From: Nocardioides sp.
GTDB lineage: Bacteria > Actinomycetota > Actinomycetes > Propionibacteriales > Nocardioidaceae
Assembly (NCBI RefSeq): GCF_016462705.1
Contig: NZ_JAEMSS010000021.1
Location: 1-35,650, forward strand
DNA: 35,650 bases
Direction of reading: 5' to 3'
Shown: piece by piece, positions 23,137-30,502 of the stretch
How the letters are laid out: each line of letters opens with the position of its first letter
Numbering within the stretch: the stretch's first letter is position 1
Translations under genes and position numbers: made by a program
The notes under the pieces: model-generated
The model's input: only the letters and a program-made list of their open reading frames with translations
The model's database searches: none
Told to the model about the DNA's origin: nothing

Positions 23137-23810
23137 GCGAGCACCTGTCCTGGAGCGAGCTGGCCGACGAGCGCGGTCTCGCCGCGGTCGCGGACGGGGA
23201 CCCCACCCGGTGGTACGAGGAGGTCTGGTCGGCCGGGGCCCGCGGCGCCGTACCCATGCCCTGGGACCGCGACGAGCCGCACGACCTGCTCGAGTGGCAC
23301 ACCCGGGGCGTGGACGGCACCGGCCGCCGGGCCGTCGTGGTCGGCGCGGGGCTCGGCGCGGACGCCGAGCACCTGGCCGGCCTGGGGTTCACGACCACCG
23401 CGTTCGACATCGCGCCGTCGGCGGTCGACTCGGCCCGAGAGCGGCACCCGGGCAGCCGGGTCGACTACCGGGTCGCCGACCTGCTGGACCTGCCGGAGGA
23501 CCTGGTCGGGGCCTTCGACCTGGTCGTCGAGATCTTCACCCTCCAGGCCCTGCACGGCTCGGTGCGCGAGCGGGCCGCTCACGGCGTACGCCGGCTGGTC
23601 GCCCCGGGCGGCACGGTCCTCGTCGTCCAGGTCGTCCGCGACGACGACGAGGAGGTGGCCGCGGAGCCGCCATGGCTGCTCGACCGGGCGGAGATGGAGG
23701 CGCTGGCCGGCGACGACCTGGTCACGACTTCCTTGGACCGGGTGCCCAACCCGGAGCACCCGGACGCGCGCGACCTGTGGCGGATGCTGCTCAGGCGGGA
23801 CGGCCGGTGA
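23133..23810 (+). CDS. SAM-dependent class I methyltransferase (TPMT-like)
   Basis: This 225-residue cytosolic protein has an N-terminal extension with WYEEVWSAGARGAVPMPWDRDEPHDLLEWH, typical of thiopurine-methyltransferase-like enzymes. The SAM-binding motif VVVGAGLGADAEHLAGLGF is followed by the acidic FDIAPSAVD and by VADLLDLP with FDLVVEIFTLQAL. The substrate cannot be told from sequence. ATG 23133 overlaps the stop of the DUF4446 gene. Its last 20 bases overlap the end of the convergent MarR gene. Confidence 0.88.
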   Translation: MSEHLSWSELADERGLAAVADGDPTRWYEEVWSAGARGAVPMPWDRDEPHDLLEWHTRGVDGTGRRAVVVGAGLGADAEHLAGLGFTTTAFDIAPSAVDSARERHPGSRVDYRVADLLDLPEDLVGAFDLVVEIFTLQALHGSVRERAAHGVRRLVAPGGTVLVVQVVRDDDEEVAAEPPWLLDRAEMEALAGDDLVTTSLDRVPNPEHPDARDLWRMLLRRDGR

Positions 23811-24681
23811 CGAACTTCTGCAGCAGGACGACGAGGCGCTGACGGCCGGCCGCGCCGACCGGCCCGAGGATCGACTCGGTGACCGACATCGCGCGGCGCT
23901 GGGCCTCGGCGACGACGTCGTCGGCCCCGGGCAGGAGGTGCAGGGACTGGGTCCGCCGGTCCGTCTCGAGCCGGCGCCGCTCCACGAGGCCGCGCCGCTC
24001 GAGGTGGTCGACGATCTCGACGACGGTGGCGCCGCTGGTGCCCAGGCTGCGGGCGAGCTCGGCCTGCGCGATCACGCCGCGGGCGCGCAGCGCGACCATG
24101 GCTCCGGTGTGCCGCGGCTCGACGTCCAGGTCACGGAGCGCCGTCATGAGCTCGGCGTGGTTCCAGCCGTGGACCCGCGTGACCAGGAACGGGATGCTCT
24201 CCAGCAGCGCGTCGGGCGTCTCGGGTGACAGCCGGGGCTCGGCGACCCGGAGCAACAGGCCACAGAGCTCCTCCCGCTCGGCCTGGCTCAGTCCGACCGT
24301 GAGGCTCTCCTCGAGGTCCTCGACGTGGCGCCGCCACCGCCGGGCCGCGGCCGCGCCGGACGGGGTGCGGGTGAGCGCGTAGGACCGCCGGTCGTCGGGG
24401 TTGCGGACCCGCTCGACCAGACCCTGCTCGACGAGGGCGGCCGCCACCTTGGTCATGGTCGTGCGGCTGGTCGCGACGCTGTCCGCCAGCCACTGCTGGG
24501 AGCGCGCCCGGCCGGCGGCGAGGGCGAGCAGCGCGGCGTACGCGTGGATGTCCACCCCGGGAGGCAGCGAGTCCGCCAGCGCGGCGGTGACCCGCGCCGC
24601 GGCCCGCCAGATGAGGTGACCGGGGATGACCGACAGCTCCGGCAGCAGTGTTCTCACGGCCTCCGGATCGGCGTCGGTCAC
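23791..24681 (-). CDS. Double MarR-domain transcriptional repressor
   Basis: The 296-residue protein contains two MarR-type winged-helix domains in one chain. The first (about 18-150) has the HTH SQQWLADSVATSRTTMTKVA and wing VRNPDDRRSYALT. The second (about 160-296) has AQAELARSLGTSGATVVEIV and wing RRLETDRRTQSLHL. MarR proteins normally dimerise from single-domain chains, so this one probably folds as a built-in pseudo-dimer with two different DNA-reading halves. GTG 24681 is preceded by GGGAGG. The gene diverges from the drug exporter, and the shared gap holds two 24-base repeats that are likely its operators. It should repress the exporter and itself until a toxic ligand binds. Confidence 0.88.
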   Translation of the reverse strand: MTDADPEAVRTLLPELSVIPGHLIWRAAARVTAALADSLPPGVDIHAYAALLALAAGRARSQQWLADSVATSRTTMTKVAAALVEQGLVERVRNPDDRRSYALTRTPSGAAAARRWRRHVEDLEESLTVGLSQAEREELCGLLLRVAEPRLSPETPDALLESIPFLVTRVHGWNHAELMTALRDLDVEPRHTGAMVALRARGVIAQAELARSLGTSGATVVEIVDHLERRGLVERRRLETDRRTQSLHLLPGADDVVAEAQRRAMSVTESILGPVGAAGRQRLVVLLQKFVTGRPA

Positions 24682-24697
24682 ATTTCCTCCCTTGGAG

Positions 24698-24721
24698 AAT
24701 CATTAGGTTCTTGACGAACGG
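24698..24721. promoter_or_regulatory. Operator repeat 1 (over the exporter -35)
   Basis: This is the first of two 24-base direct repeats, with cores TTAGGTTCTTGACGAA here and TTAGGTAGTTGACGAA in the second. They share 19 of 24 bases and begin exactly 50 bases apart. The repeat contains TTGACG (24711-24716), a near-perfect -35 for the exporter promoter. It is likely a binding site of the double MarR repressor. Confidence 0.65.
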
Positions 24722-24738
24722 CTCTTCTCGAGTATCGT
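24711..24738 (+). promoter_or_regulatory. Promoter of the MFS exporter
   Basis: TTGACG (24711-24716) and TATCGT (24733-24738) are separated by 16 bases, putting the transcription start near 24745, about 40 bases before the exporter ATG. The -35 lies inside operator repeat 1, and the start site lies just before operator repeat 2. Confidence 0.65.
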
Positions 24739-24747
24739 ACCGGAGGT

Positions 24748-24771
24748 AATCGTTAGGTAGTTGACGAATCG
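24748..24771. promoter_or_regulatory. Operator repeat 2 (at the exporter transcription start)
   Basis: This is the second copy of the 24-base repeat, lying immediately downstream of the predicted start site. A repressor bound here and at repeat 1 would bracket the promoter. The two sites are on the same side, in the same orientation, about five helical turns apart. Confidence 0.65.
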
Positions 24772-24785
24772 CCTGAGGACGGCCG

Positions 24786-26372
24786 ATGACCGAGACCGAC
24801 GCAGACCGCAGCCAGCGCGACACCGCCGCCCCGGCGGCGGCGGACGCGAAGTGGTGGACGCTCGTCGCCGTCTGCACGGGCGTGTTCATCCTGCTGCTCG
24901 ACATCACCATCGTGAACGTCGCCCTGCCGGACATCCAGGTGGAGCTCGGCGCCTCCCTCTCCGACCTGCAGTGGGTCATCGACGCCTACGCGCTGAGCCT
25001 GGCGGCGCTCCTGCTCACCGCCGGCTCGCTCGCCGACCTGTTCGGCCGCCGGCGGGTGTTCGTGATCGGCACCCTCCTGTTCCTGGTGGGCTCGGTGGCC
25101 TGCGGCGCTGCCCAGGACGTCTTCCTCCTCCAGCTGGCCCGCGGGTTCCAGGGCATCGGCGGAGCCGCGATGTTCGCCACCGCGCTGGCATTGATCGCCT
25201 CGGCGTTCCACGGCCGGGACCGGGGCATCGCGTTCGGCGTGTTCGGCGCGACGACCGGGGTCGCGGTCGCGGTCGGACCGGTCCTGGGAGGGGTGCTGAC
25301 CAGCGGCCTGTCCTGGCGCTGGATCTTCTTCGTCAACGTCCCGATCTGCGTCTTCGCCGTGGTGGTCGCGCTCGTCCGGGTGCGGGAGTCGCACGACCCC
25401 CGGGCCGGGCGGCCGGACTGGTTCGGGTTCGTCACCTTCAGCCTGGCGCTGGCGGCCCTGGTCTACGGCCTGATCCGGGCCGGCCAGGAGAGCTGGGACG
25501 ACACCCGGGTCGTGGCGTGCCTGGTCGCCTCCGCGGCACTGCTGGCGGTCTTCGTGGTGAGCCAGGTGCGGCAGGAGTACCCGATGTTCGACCTGGCCCT
25601 GCTCCGCAAGCCGACCTTCACAGGCGGGCTGCTGGCGGCCTTCGGGGTCTCCGCCTCGATGTTCTCGCTGCTGACCTACCTGGTGATCTACGTGCAGAAC
25701 GTGCTGGGCTACTCGGCCGTCGAGGCCGGCGTCCGCTTCCTCTTCCTCTCCGGCACCGCCTTCTTCGCGGCCGGGATCGCTGGCCGGCTCACCGAGCGGG
25801 TCCCCGCGAAGTGGCTGATCGCGCCCGGCTTCCTGGTGCTCGGCACGGGCCTGCTGCTCCTGCGGGGCATCGAGCCCGACTCCGAGTGGACCCATCTGAT
25901 CCCGGGGCTGCTGGTCGCCGGCGTGGGCATCGGCATGATCAACACCCCGCTCGCGTCCACCGCCGTCGGCGTGGTCTCGGTCGACCGGGCCGGGATGGCC
26001 TCCGGCATCAACTCCACCTTGCGCCAGGTCGGGATCGCCACCGGCATCGCCACCCTCGGGTCGATCTTCAGCCACGAGGTGGCCGACGGCGTGACCAGCG
26101 GGCTGGCCGGCACCCCGGCCGCGGGGGACTCCGACCGGATCTCCGCGGCGATCACCGGCGGCCAGGTCGAGTCCGTGGTGCAGTCCGCACCCGCCGGCGT
26201 GCGCGACCAGATCGCGGCGGTCGCCACCTCGAGCTTCATCGACGCGCTGGACCACATCACCCTGATCGCCGCCGCGGTCGCGTTCGTGACGGCCGTCCTG
26301 TGCTTCGCGCTGATCCGGCAGCAGGACTTCGTGGCCCACCCGGGCGAGGAGTCTCAACCCTCCGACGGTTGA
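24786..26372 (+). CDS. DHA2-family MFS multidrug exporter (14 transmembrane helices)
   Basis: This 528-residue inner-membrane proton antiporter is of the EmrB/QacA type. Helix 1 carries the DHA2 motif LDITIVNVALPDIQ. Motif A is GSLADLFGRRRVFVIG, and motif C is GPVLGGVLTSGLSWRWIFFVNVPI. The length and hydrophobic segments fit 14 helices, including a large loop around residues 435-490 before the last one. It should expel hydrophobic or cationic toxic compounds; the true substrate is unknown. ATG 24786 follows a GAGGA-containing leader. It is controlled by the divergent double-MarR repressor. Its last 19 bases overlap the end of the convergent DUF389 gene. Confidence 0.93.
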   Translation: MTETDADRSQRDTAAPAAADAKWWTLVAVCTGVFILLLDITIVNVALPDIQVELGASLSDLQWVIDAYALSLAALLLTAGSLADLFGRRRVFVIGTLLFLVGSVACGAAQDVFLLQLARGFQGIGGAAMFATALALIASAFHGRDRGIAFGVFGATTGVAVAVGPVLGGVLTSGLSWRWIFFVNVPICVFAVVVALVRVRESHDPRAGRPDWFGFVTFSLALAALVYGLIRAGQESWDDTRVVACLVASAALLAVFVVSQVRQEYPMFDLALLRKPTFTGGLLAAFGVSASMFSLLTYLVIYVQNVLGYSAVEAGVRFLFLSGTAFFAAGIAGRLTERVPAKWLIAPGFLVLGTGLLLLRGIEPDSEWTHLIPGLLVAGVGIGMINTPLASTAVGVVSVDRAGMASGINSTLRQVGIATGIATLGSIFSHEVADGVTSGLAGTPAAGDSDRISAAITGGQVESVVQSAPAGVRDQIAAVATSSFIDALDHITLIAAAVAFVTAVLCFALIRQQDFVAHPGEESQPSDG

Positions 26373-27304
26373 CCGCGCCGTCTCCGGCGGACGCCTTGCC
26401 AGGCGAGCTCCTGGACGGCCAGGGTCAGCCACCCGGCCAGCACCATCCCGCTGATGTTGAGGGCGAGCTGCAGGAGACTCCCGGACACCTCGCCCCAAGC
26501 CCCGAAGGCCAGGCCCAGCGCGACGTTGCCCGCCGCGGGCACGGTGGTGACCGAGATGAAGACCCCGGACAGCCCACCGAGCTTGTCCGAGGTCAGGGAC
26601 AGGACGCCCGCGGCCGCGGCGATCAGGGCGACGATGAAGGACCACTTGTCCGGCGAGTATATGAAGTCGGTCCCCGGACGGGGACCGGTCACGTCGCCCG
26701 CGACCACCCACCCGACGGCTCTGGCCACGAGCGCCAGCAGGGTGGTCATCACGATGGCCACCGCGAAGCCGGTCACCAGAGTCGTGCCGGCCCGGCGGAA
26801 CAGCGACCGGCGGCGGCGCACCATGGCCAGCCCGAGCGCTGCGATCGGCACGAACTCGGGCCCGAGCACCATCGCGCCGATCACCAGCACCTGCGAGTCC
26901 ACCACGATCGCGATGGCCGCCAGCAGCGTGGCCAGGGTCATGAACCACAGATAGGTCCAGTTGAGCTCGGAGTCCTCGTAGGCGCGCTGGGTGACGTCGC
27001 TCCACACGACCGCGTCCGCGCTGGCGCCCGGTGTCACGCGCTCGGCCTGCAGTCCCGCCTTCGACACCCAGCTCCGGACCGGCTCGAGGTGGATGGTGCC
27101 GCGCTCGCCGAGACCCAGGGCGGTCAGCCTCTCGACGAAGTCGCTCGCGGCCTCCCTCGCCACGTCCGCCATCACGATGTCCCCGGTCGGCTGGAGCGAG
27201 GCGCCCGGGAGGTGCGAGAGGTGACTGATCGCCGGGTCGTCGGCGAGCAGGTCCAGGACGGCGTCACTGAGGTCGGCGGGAACGCTGATCCGCAGGTGCA
27301 TCAT
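26354..27304 (-). CDS. DUF389-family membrane protein
   Basis: The 316-residue protein has an N-terminal soluble alpha/beta domain (about 1-85, MHLRISVPADLSDAVLDLL). A membrane domain of about six helices follows, with the family signature DSQVLVIGAMVLGPEFVPIAALGLAMVRRR and a second conserved stretch TVPAAGNVALGLAFG. The function of DUF389 proteins is unknown. It starts seven bases after kdpE ends on the same strand, so it is very likely part of the kdp transcript, suggesting a link with ion or osmotic stress. A basic tail (RRRRRGQPSEG) ends the protein. Confidence 0.88.
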   Translation of the reverse strand: MMHLRISVPADLSDAVLDLLADDPAISHLSHLPGASLQPTGDIVMADVAREAASDFVERLTALGLGERGTIHLEPVRSWVSKAGLQAERVTPGASADAVVWSDVTQRAYEDSELNWTYLWFMTLATLLAAIAIVVDSQVLVIGAMVLGPEFVPIAALGLAMVRRRRSLFRRAGTTLVTGFAVAIVMTTLLALVARAVGWVVAGDVTGPRPGTDFIYSPDKWSFIVALIAAAAGVLSLTSDKLGGLSGVFISVTTVPAAGNVALGLAFGAWGEVSGSLLQLALNISGMVLAGWLTLAVQELAWQGVRRRRRGQPSEG

Positions 27305-27311
27305 CGTCGGG

Positions 27312-27992
27312 TCATGCCTCCAGCGTGTAGCCGAGACCCGGCGAGGTGATGAGGTGCCGCGGATGAGCCGGGTCGTCCTCGAGCTTGCGGCGCAGCTGCG
27401 CGGCGTAGACCCGAAGGTAGTGGCTCTCTCCGACGTGCGCCGGTCCCCACACCTCGCGGAGAAGCTGCTCCCGGGTCACGAGCCTGCCGAGGTTGCGCGC
27501 CAGCAGCTCCAAGAAGCTCCACTCCGTCGGTGTGAGGCGTACGTCGACCCCGGCCCGGGTGACCCGCTTGCGGGCGAGGTCGATGACGAGCGAGCCGACC
27601 TCGACGTCCACCAGCGCCGGCTCGGCCTCCTCCCCTCGGCGGACCGCGGCCCGCAACCGGGCCATCAGCTCGTTCATCGCGAACGGCTTGGTGACGTAGT
27701 CGTCGGCGCCGAGGTCGAGCGCCTCCACCTTGTCCTCGCCGTGCTGACGAGCGGACAGGACCACGATCGGCACCTTCGTCCAGCCACGCAGCCCGGCGAG
27801 CACCTCGGTGCCGTCCATGTCCGGGAGTCCCAGGTCCAGCACCACCACGTCCGGGTGGGTCGTGGCTGCCGCGTCGAGTGCCGAGCGGCCGTCCGCGGCG
27901 GTCACGACCTCCCAGCCGTGGGCGCGCAGGTTGATCGCCAGCGCCCGGGCCAGGGCCGGCTCGTCGTCGACGACCAGCACCTTGCGGCTCAC
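27312..27992 (-). CDS. kdpE: Potassium-transport response regulator KdpE
   Basis: This 226-residue OmpR/PhoB-type regulator activates the kdp promoter. The receiver domain has the acidic pair Asp9-Asp10, the phospho-accepting Asp53 in LDLGLPDMDG, and the switch Lys in YVTKPF. The C-terminal winged helix contains RVTRAGVDVRLTPTEWSFLELL and VYAAQLRRKLEDDPAHPRHL. GTG 27992 overlaps the kdpD stop as GTGA. Its likely target is the repeat-rich region upstream of kdpF. Confidence 0.95.
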   Translation of the reverse strand: MSRKVLVVDDEPALARALAINLRAHGWEVVTAADGRSALDAAATTHPDVVVLDLGLPDMDGTEVLAGLRGWTKVPIVVLSARQHGEDKVEALDLGADDYVTKPFAMNELMARLRAAVRRGEEAEPALVDVEVGSLVIDLARKRVTRAGVDVRLTPTEWSFLELLARNLGRLVTREQLLREVWGPAHVGESHYLRVYAAQLRRKLEDDPAHPRHLITSPGLGYTLEA

Positions 27993-30502
27993 GTCAGGTC
28001 CCTGGGCACCGAGACCACCATGGTCAGCCCGCCGCCCGGGGTGTCCTCGGCGGACAGCTCCCCCTCGATCGCCTCGGTGAGACCACGCGCCACCGCGAGC
28101 CCGAGGCCCAGTCCTCCCGGGGAGGCGTCGTCCAGGCGCTGGAACGGCTCGAACATCCGCTCGCGCTGGTCGGGCGGCACCCCTGGGCCGCGGTCCACGA
28201 CCAGGATCTCGACCGTCGTGGGGAGAACGTGTGCCAGAACCCGCACGGGCGTGCCCCCGGAGACCCGGACCGCGTTGCCCACCAGGTTGGCGACGACCCG
28301 CTCGAGCAGGCCGCGGTCGGTGCGGACGAACGGCACCGACTCGTCGACCTCGAGCGACACCGCACCGGGCTCGTAGCCGGAGACCGCGATGGGCAGGATC
28401 TCGTCGAGGCTGCGCGGCGAGAGCACGGGCTTGACCAGGCCCGACTGGACGCGCGACAGGTCGAGCAGGTTGTCGATCAGCCGCTCGAGCTGGTCGGTCG
28501 CGTCGCCGACGGTGCTCACGAGCGTGGCCCGGTCGGCCTCGTCGAGCCCGTCGGAGACCAGCCCGTCGACGGCCGTGCGCATCGTGGCCAGTGGGGTTCG
28601 CAGGTCGTGGGAGACCGCACGCAGCAGGGCCGTCGAGGTCGCCTCCGCCCCCTCCAGGGCCGCCGCCCGCTCCTCGCGCGCCTTGAGCCTGCGGTACTCG
28701 AGCACCAGCCCGGTCTGGACGGCGAAGGCCTCCAGCACGCGCTGGTCACGGGCTCGCAGCGTCCCGCCGCACAGCGCGATGACGTGGTCCTCGTCAACGC
28801 TCACCCGGGTGTCGCCGTCGTCGGGGTCGGTCGCGCACGGGTGGCCGGACGAGGCCAGCACCGACCAGCCGGTCGGCGAGCGCCTCAGCAGCGACACGGC
28901 GTCCTGGCCGAAGGTCTCCCGCACCTGCTCGACAATCGCTTCCGCGGTGTCCTGTCCGGTGAGCACCGAGCGGGAGAGTGCGCTCATGGTGGCCGCCTCC
29001 GTGCGTGCCTGCGTGGCCTCGATCGAACGCCGGGAGGCCCGGTCGACGACGGACGCGACCCCGGCCGCGACGGCCAGGAAGACGACCAGGACGACGATGT
29101 TGCGCGGCTCGGCGACGGTGAACGTGCCGACCGGTGGGGTGAAGAACCAGTTGAGCACCAGGAAGCCCACGACCGCGGCGAGCAGCGCCGGGAGCAGGCC
29201 GCCCACGAGGGCGACGAGGACCGTGGTCGCGAGGAGGGTGAGGGTGGCCAGCGGCAGCTGGTCGGTGTCCTCGAACAGGTGCAGCACCCAGGCCAGCACC
29301 GCCGGCAGGACCAGCGCCGACAGCCAGCCTGCGAGCTGCCGTCCTGGCGACAGCGTGGACAGCGCCTGCCGCGACCGGCTCGACATGGTCGCCTGGTCGT
29401 GGGTGACGAGGTGCACGTCGATCGCACCGGCCAGCCCGGCGATCTGGTCACCCGTCGAGCCGGTGACCACGCGTCGTAGCCGCCCGTGCCGGGAGACTCC
29501 GACCACGATCATGGTCGCGTTCGCCCCCGAGGCGAAGTCGACCACCGCCGCGGCGACGTCCTCACCGGCGACCGAGTGGAACGTCCCGCCCAGGCCCGCG
29601 ACGAGCTGCTGGGCCCGGGACAGCCGGCCCTCGTCACCGGTCCGCAGGCCGTCGGTGGCGATGACGTGGACGGCGAGCAGGTCGGACCCGGCGGCCCGCT
29701 GGGCGAGCCGGGCGCCGCGCCGGATCAGGGTCTCGCTCTCGGCGCCGCCGGTGACCGCGACGACAATCCGCTCCTTGGCCGGCCAGGTCTCCTGGATCTG
29801 GTGCGTCCTGCGGTAGTCGTCGAGGGCGTCGTCGACGCGGTCCGCGAGCCACAGCAACGCGAGCTCGCGCAGTGCGGTGAGGTTGCCGACCCGGAAGTAC
29901 GACGTCAGGGAGGCGTCGATGTTCTCCGGCTTGTAGATGTTGCCGTGCGCCATCCGCCGGCGCAGCGCGTCCGGGGACATGTCGACCAGCTGGATCGAGT
30001 CGGCGGTGCGGACGACGTCGTCCGGCACGGTCTCCCGCTGGCGGACGCCGGTGATCCGCTCGACCTCGTCGTTGAGCGACTCGAGGTGCTGGATGTTGAC
30101 CGTGGTGATCACGTCGATGCCGGCGGCCCGGATCTGCTCGACGTCGTGCGCCCGCTTCTCGTGCGGACTGCCGGGCACGTTGGTGTGGGCGAGCTCGTCG
30201 ACGCAGACGACCTTCGGGCGCCTCGCGATGATCGCCTCGGTGTCCATCTCGGTGAAGGTGCTGCCCTTGTGCTGCAGCACCCGGCGCGGGACCACCTCGA
30301 GTCCCTCGAGCTGGGCCTCGGTGTTCGCCCGGCCGTGCGTCTCGACGTAGCCGACGACGACGTCGGTGCCGCGCTCGCAGCGGCGCCGGGCCTCGCCGAG
30401 CATGGCGTAGGTCTTGCCGACCCCGGGTGCCGCGCCGAGGTAGACGGTCAGCCGGCCGCGCCGTACCTCCCCGATCTCGGGCTCTGCCACCGGCTTCGCC
30501 AT
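27989..30502 (-). CDS. kdpD: Potassium-sensing histidine kinase KdpD
   Basis: This 837-residue kinase is full length. The KdpD-specific N-terminal ATPase-like domain has a Walker A motif GAAPGVGKT (23-31) and VVCVDELAHTN. A universal-stress-protein domain follows (about 250-370), then four closely spaced transmembrane helices (about 400-500), a GAF-like region, the phosphorylated His in VSHDLRTPLATM and the HATPase domain with VDRGPGVP and GLGLGLAVARGL. It phosphorylates KdpE when potassium is scarce. It starts four bases after the kdpC stop. Confidence 0.96.
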   Translation of the reverse strand: MAKPVAEPEIGEVRRGRLTVYLGAAPGVGKTYAMLGEARRRCERGTDVVVGYVETHGRANTEAQLEGLEVVPRRVLQHKGSTFTEMDTEAIIARRPKVVCVDELAHTNVPGSPHEKRAHDVEQIRAAGIDVITTVNIQHLESLNDEVERITGVRQRETVPDDVVRTADSIQLVDMSPDALRRRMAHGNIYKPENIDASLTSYFRVGNLTALRELALLWLADRVDDALDDYRRTHQIQETWPAKERIVVAVTGGAESETLIRRGARLAQRAAGSDLLAVHVIATDGLRTGDEGRLSRAQQLVAGLGGTFHSVAGEDVAAAVVDFASGANATMIVVGVSRHGRLRRVVTGSTGDQIAGLAGAIDVHLVTHDQATMSSRSRQALSTLSPGRQLAGWLSALVLPAVLAWVLHLFEDTDQLPLATLTLLATTVLVALVGGLLPALLAAVVGFLVLNWFFTPPVGTFTVAEPRNIVVLVVFLAVAAGVASVVDRASRRSIEATQARTEAATMSALSRSVLTGQDTAEAIVEQVRETFGQDAVSLLRRSPTGWSVLASSGHPCATDPDDGDTRVSVDEDHVIALCGGTLRARDQRVLEAFAVQTGLVLEYRRLKAREERAAALEGAEATSTALLRAVSHDLRTPLATMRTAVDGLVSDGLDEADRATLVSTVGDATDQLERLIDNLLDLSRVQSGLVKPVLSPRSLDEILPIAVSGYEPGAVSLEVDESVPFVRTDRGLLERVVANLVGNAVRVSGGTPVRVLAHVLPTTVEILVVDRGPGVPPDQRERMFEPFQRLDDASPGGLGLGLAVARGLTEAIEGELSAEDTPGGGLTMVVSVPRDLT

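Follow-up and report, generated by a model that had tools for sequence, protein, structure and literature searches.

The locus described here raises the question of how DNA is read when two different MarR domains are joined in one chain. Single-domain MarR repressors are textbook symmetric dimers, that is, homodimers on symmetric half-sites; their operators are dyads of about 20 bp lying over promoter elements, and in several of these systems the repressor gene is divergent from that of an efflux transporter. In a stretch of 35,650 nucleotides from Nocardioides sp. (contig NZ_JAEMSS010000021.1; hereafter, the window), a gene coding for a MarR-MarR fusion and a gene coding for an efflux pump are divergent, and a gap of 104 bp (24682-24785) separates the GTG start codon of the fusion (24681, minus strand) from the ATG of the pump (24786). 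A first-pass annotation of this gap had proposed that an asymmetric, fused reader is matched here to an asymmetric, non-palindromic site. We found that this idea can be kept in a refined form, in which the site is a pseudo-palindrome with one fixed, polar half-site difference, oriented in one direction in 61/61 sites; the part that denied any palindrome has to be given up.

The fused protein, the pump and the gap between them

The features of the locus that are referred to below are as follows:
23791-24681, minus strand: MarR-MarR fusion gene, coding for 296 aa from a GTG start, with both MarR matches in the same open frame
24698-24719, minus strand: candidate operator O1, 22 bp, reading GTTCGTCAAGAACCTAATGATT toward the MarR gene (exact pattern match)
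24711-24716, plus strand: predicted -35 box of the pump promoter, TTGACG, within the left half of O1
24733-24738, plus strand: predicted -10 box of the pump promoter, TATCGT, separated by 16 bp from the -35 box
24748-24769, minus strand: candidate operator O2, 22 bp, reading ATTCGTCAACTACCTAACGATT toward the MarR gene (exact pattern match)
24786-26372, plus strand: divergent DHA2-family (EmrB/QacA-type) MFS efflux transporter, the presumed target (528 aa; TIGR00711)

Both PF01047 (76.7 bits) and PF12802 (74.4 bits) match the fusion over two stretches each, with scores above their cut-offs, and the MarR matches fall at about residues 42-100 and 195-243 of a single open frame. Thus, as first proposed, one chain carries two different MarR domains. 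The N- and C-terminal halves are 31% identical over 102 aa, and the recognition helix of the N-terminal domain differs from that of the C-terminal domain, each being largely kept among close relatives. We built a tree from the separated halves of 22 of the 48 fused proteins and from 12 of the 48 single-domain MarR proteins of the control loci described below. The N-terminal domains formed one clade (100/97), and all of the fused domains were placed apart from the single-domain proteins (99/95). The C-terminal domains did not form one clade and the N-terminal clade was nested among them; the bootstrap had not converged. Structure prediction of the chain, which had been suggested as a check, produced a confident two-domain AlphaFold model (mean pLDDT of 86.2, pTM of 0.84), based on a two-sequence alignment.

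The pump matches TIGR00711 with 275 bits against a cut-off of 230.2, which makes it a member of the DHA2 family, and its gene is divergent from the fusion in all 37 loci of the close set defined below (window included). As for the surrounding genes, the end of the fusion gene overlaps by 20 bp (23791-23810) the tail of a convergent ORF that ends at 23810; this ORF is methyltransferase-like in appearance and has no NCBIfam match. Beyond the pump, the region 26354-30502 codes for a hydrophobic protein whose match to TIGR00271 is slightly under the model cut-off, followed by a regulator and a kinase with KdpE and KdpD, respectively, as best matches, under the equivalog cut-offs.

Within the gap, two 24-mers in the same direction (24698-24721 and 24748-24771) are identical at 19/24 positions and begin exactly 50 bp apart, in agreement with the first-pass annotation. 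A 24-mer similarity as high as that of this repeat pair was found in 0/20,000 base-composition shuffles of the gap. The TTGACG-N16-TATCGT promoter is also present (24711-24716 and 24733-24738). The repeats had been said to bracket this promoter, but the -35 hexamer is itself part of the first repeat and does not fall between the two. O2 is located downstream of the predicted -10 box of the pump promoter.

Candidate operators in related loci

Relatives of the fusion were sampled at several taxonomic depths. Within the same bacterial family, 32 of the 294 genomes searched (own included) have a match at an E-value of 1e-20 or better, and within the genus 26 of 215 genomes match at 1e-40; one named relative is Nocardioides flavescens. 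A contig scan for relatives returned two loci, and L035, matched over one domain only, was left out. The close set consists of 37 loci, the window and 36 others at 46.6-64.1% identity, some of the alignments being partial; loci with less than 45% identity were handled separately. In a class-wide profile search of 394 genomes, 13 genomes (own included) showed matches over both domains, with members in four further families, and six further matches were to a single domain. In a phylum-wide sample of 296 genomes there were eight matches, of which two, both from the same class, covered both domains. The distant matches G012 and G032 lie outside the analysed loci.

De novo motif discovery by expectation-maximisation, run on the 36 loci without the window and with both strands allowed, returned AATCGTCAAGTGCTTAACGATTAC, which is the same site. 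Scanning with a symmetrised, orientation-blind matrix then detected 61 sites, present in 37/37 close loci at the threshold used, and the same scan at the same threshold found none in the 127,577 positions tested elsewhere in the same 37 loci. All of the 61 sites point the same way. We distinguished between O1-type sites, in which TTGACG on the pump strand has TANNNT at a distance of exactly 16 bp (23 sites), and O2-type sites, with no -10 hexamer on the pump strand (36 sites, 22 of them in loci that also have O1); two overlapping sites shifted by 15 bp (in L007 and L016) were left out of this division. The spacing between O1 and O2 is exactly 50 bp in 20/22 pairs, and 49 and 45 bp in the remaining two. 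CGTCAA, the other strand of the -35 box, is invariant in the O1-type sites. An imperfect 22-bp dyad of the kind bound by MarR proteins is thus found in every close locus, and in the O1-type sites, 23 in number, it overlaps a predicted -35 box.

The search for other copies of the motif that had been suggested was made in the organism's own genome (88% complete), where the only matches with no mismatch are the two sites in the gap. Allowing up to two mismatches gave 11 matches, compared with four for a backwards control, and the idea of a wide regulon in this genome was rejected. In the window alone, three matches were found with up to three mismatches; shuffled sequences gave 0.45 on average and at least three in 3/100 cases. 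The weight of the case for these candidate operators lies in the comparison between genomes.

Two variations on the site were also seen. Eleven of the 36 O2-type sites have, exactly 15 bp upstream, a further left half-site (TCRTCA) of the same orientation (L007, L009, L010, L011, L016, L017, L019, L020, L051, L052 and L053, but not the window); the remaining 79 offsets tested gave no such half-site. Possibly, it is a third half-site or part of an overlapping second site. In L024, both candidate sites have a changed left half (GCAAAC, compared to GTCAAG elsewhere) and an intact right half, and one of the two passes the scan threshold. The N-terminal wing and the C-terminal recognition helix of the L024 protein also differ. 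Because both of its domains differ, L024 does not decide which domain faces which half-site, and an assignment on this basis was set aside.

Polarity of the site and how it may be read

Taken over the family, the site has the form that a MarR protein would lead one to expect, an imperfect inverted repeat of 22 bp, and for this reason we rejected its description as non-palindromic. The two copies in the window are weak dyads, with 5 and 7 of 11 complementary pairs, but the palindrome, although imperfect, is clear in the family consensus. Among its conserved mirror pairs, one is consistently non-complementary. Position 7 is C in 60/61 sites and position 16 is A in 56/61, the two bases being found together in 55/61; the exceptions at position 16 are C in two O2 sites and G, the symmetric base, in three O1 sites. 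A C in one half and a T at the equivalent place in the other is not what a symmetric reader would be expected to favour.

As controls, we took two single-domain MarR families from the organism's own genome, which is a small number, collected their loci across its bacterial family (18 and 30) and analysed them in the same way. In their best dyads, 7/7 and 6/6 strongly conserved pairs are complementary, whereas in the fused set four are complementary and one is not; in control A, one non-complementary conserved pair is found in each of the dyads ranked second and third. The best hit was reversed in 6 of the 48 control loci (four and two per family). These six, together with one locus that failed the score or length filter, were left out, and the control analysis covers the matches for which a locus was fetched, many others lying outside it.

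Among 11 fused loci at 31-35% identity, seven (L027, L030-L033, L037 and L039) have retained these polar half-sites and their direction, with a spacer of 5 bp as opposed to 4 bp in the close relatives; the half-site pattern was found in none of the other four. The divergent gene codes for an MMPL transporter in L027, L030 and L032, the three site-bearing loci tested by Pfam; the MFS pump is kept in L037, and in L028, which has no site, the divergent gene codes for an ABC transporter. Five further distant fused loci include L076, with one weak site, and L068, with one partial site; no sites were found near the gene in L072-L074. Altogether, of 16 distinct distant fused loci, seven have no site near the gene and in two the site is weak or partial. 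Each of the seven clear distant sites coincides in part with a -35-like box that has TANNNT 17-18 bp away, and they are therefore no independent test of C7.

At O1, C7 belongs to the -35 box, and so its presence there proves nothing. Since the left half overlaps a -35-like box both in O1 and in the seven clear distant sites, and such a box by itself would preserve C7, the case for polarity rests on O2. Of the 36 O2-type sites, 17 have A at position 5 and 20 have a base other than A at position 9. Positions that a -35 box would constrain can therefore vary at O2, and yet C7 is retained in 35 of these sites and A16 in 34. For the 22 O2 sites that are paired with O1, the corresponding figures are 14 with A at position 5, 14 without A at position 9, 22 with C7 and 20 with A16. 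Thus, the half-site difference at O2 is not explained by the pump -35 box, which adds to what remains of the original proposal of an asymmetric site. The bases of O2 may have a role in the direction of the repressor's own promoter. Moreover, orientation and asymmetry are shared by descent, and the 61 sites are therefore not 61 independent events.

We consider it probable that the fused protein is an autoregulated, built-in MarR pseudo-dimer with polar half-sites, one chain of which would occupy each 22-bp site and repress the pump until a ligand intervenes. The fusion, its relatives and the spacing, orientation and half-site difference of the candidate operators can be read from the DNA itself, and from them we infer the binding, repression and release steps. 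In this proposal, the usual MarR homodimer would have been turned into one chain, with two diverged domains packing as a pseudo-dimer, and each chain would sit on one 22-bp pseudo-palindrome with the consensus AATCGTCAAGNNCTTAACGATT. One domain would contact TCRTCA, the left half, and its partner the right half (ATCGTTA when reverse-complemented), and because a different domain would face each half, binding would have a fixed polarity. Protein bound at O1 would cover the -35 box and at O2 the region just past the -10 box of the divergent pump promoter, with repression of the pump and probably also of the repressor gene. A ligand, perhaps the substrate of the pump, would free the protein from the DNA. 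That one chain fills a single site is suggested by the AlphaFold model and by its match to SarS of Staphylococcus aureus (see below); fused chains could also pair into a four-headed assembly. More cautiously, we lean toward the view that the half-site specificities have been split between the fused domains, resulting in a polar operator that is bound in one direction, and that half-sites and spacing could thereby evolve independently (4 bp in close and 5 bp in distant members).

Other explanations would account for part of these observations. The half-site contacts could be equivalent, the C7/A16 pair being a trace of the O1 -35 box (TTGACG) that reached O2 through an ancient duplication and has since been inherited. 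The invariance of CGTCAA in 23/23 O1 sites, the -35-like boxes that also overlap the seven clear distant sites and an orientation that was possibly inherited only once all agree with this symmetric reading. We nevertheless find it unlikely, because the promoter-relevant bases at positions 5 and 9 drift in the O2-type sites while C7 stays, because A16 stays as well with no role in the pump promoter seen for it, and because a fixed mismatch is absent from the best dyads of the control families. Several MarR dimers can bind together, and the exact 50-bp spacing of most O1-O2 pairs could reflect a higher-order assembly, in which two chains pair and place one domain each on each site or O1 and O2 are connected by a single chain that loops the intervening 50 bp; the fusion would then provide a tetramer-like geometry and not half-site asymmetry. 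That 15/37 close loci have no O1-O2 pair at the threshold used, that each site is already a full MarR-sized dyad and that SarS, the match over both halves, is described as not being a dimer (PMC10715151) makes this distinctly improbable. We give hardly any credence to the idea that the repeats bind another regulator and that the MarR fusion is a bystander, as the motif is found with the fused gene in 37/37 close and 7/11 distant loci, in three of the latter next to a different type of divergent transporter, and is exact nowhere else in the genome.

If the built-in pseudo-dimer with split half-site specificity is correct, it would offer a natural test case for the passage from a homodimeric repressor to a directional reader. 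Since the 37 related loci provide exact candidate operators, whether the fused protein reads DNA asymmetrically is a question that comes down to a few simple binding assays. The pump family presumed to be regulated here includes drug exporters.

Comparison with known systems

The fusion shares the MarR domain with single-domain repressors such as MarR, MexR, CouR and MprA. These are one-domain chains, whereas the fusion has two domains per chain and a fixed half-site difference in its predicted site. The pump, in turn, is above the curated TIGR00711 cut-off, as are DHA2 MFS exporters (EmrB/QacA, LfrA, TcmA), but far under the cut-offs of the specific drug-pump models listed.

The known protein most similar in architecture is SarS, of the SarA/MarR superfamily, in which one chain also comprises two MarR-like winged-helix halves. 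In a Foldseek search with the predicted model, SarS (PDB 1p4x) ranked first by E-value (5.3e-5, TM of 0.52 on the query), and with VIA-align it was tied for second by Z (14.7 over 234 residues, rmsd of 5.1). The fit is loose, with rmsd values of 5.1-6.3, and the sequence identity is 9-11%; among the structure matches listed SarS covers both halves, whereas most of the others are single MarR chains over one half. The fusion falls under the cut-offs of the Sar family models, with 25.6 bits for PF22381 (cut-off 27) and 15.8 for TIGR01889 (cut-off 62.6). In PMC10715151, SarS is presented as a single chain with two homologous MarR-like halves, and its binding sites as still to be elucidated as of 2023; for the fusion, in contrast, candidate operators and their polarity are visible. 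Among the titles and opening lines of abstracts in one open-access library, we found no fused MarR regulators outside the SarA family. Fused MarR-fold regulators, then, are already known from SarS, and what is added here are candidate operators with a consistent polarity.
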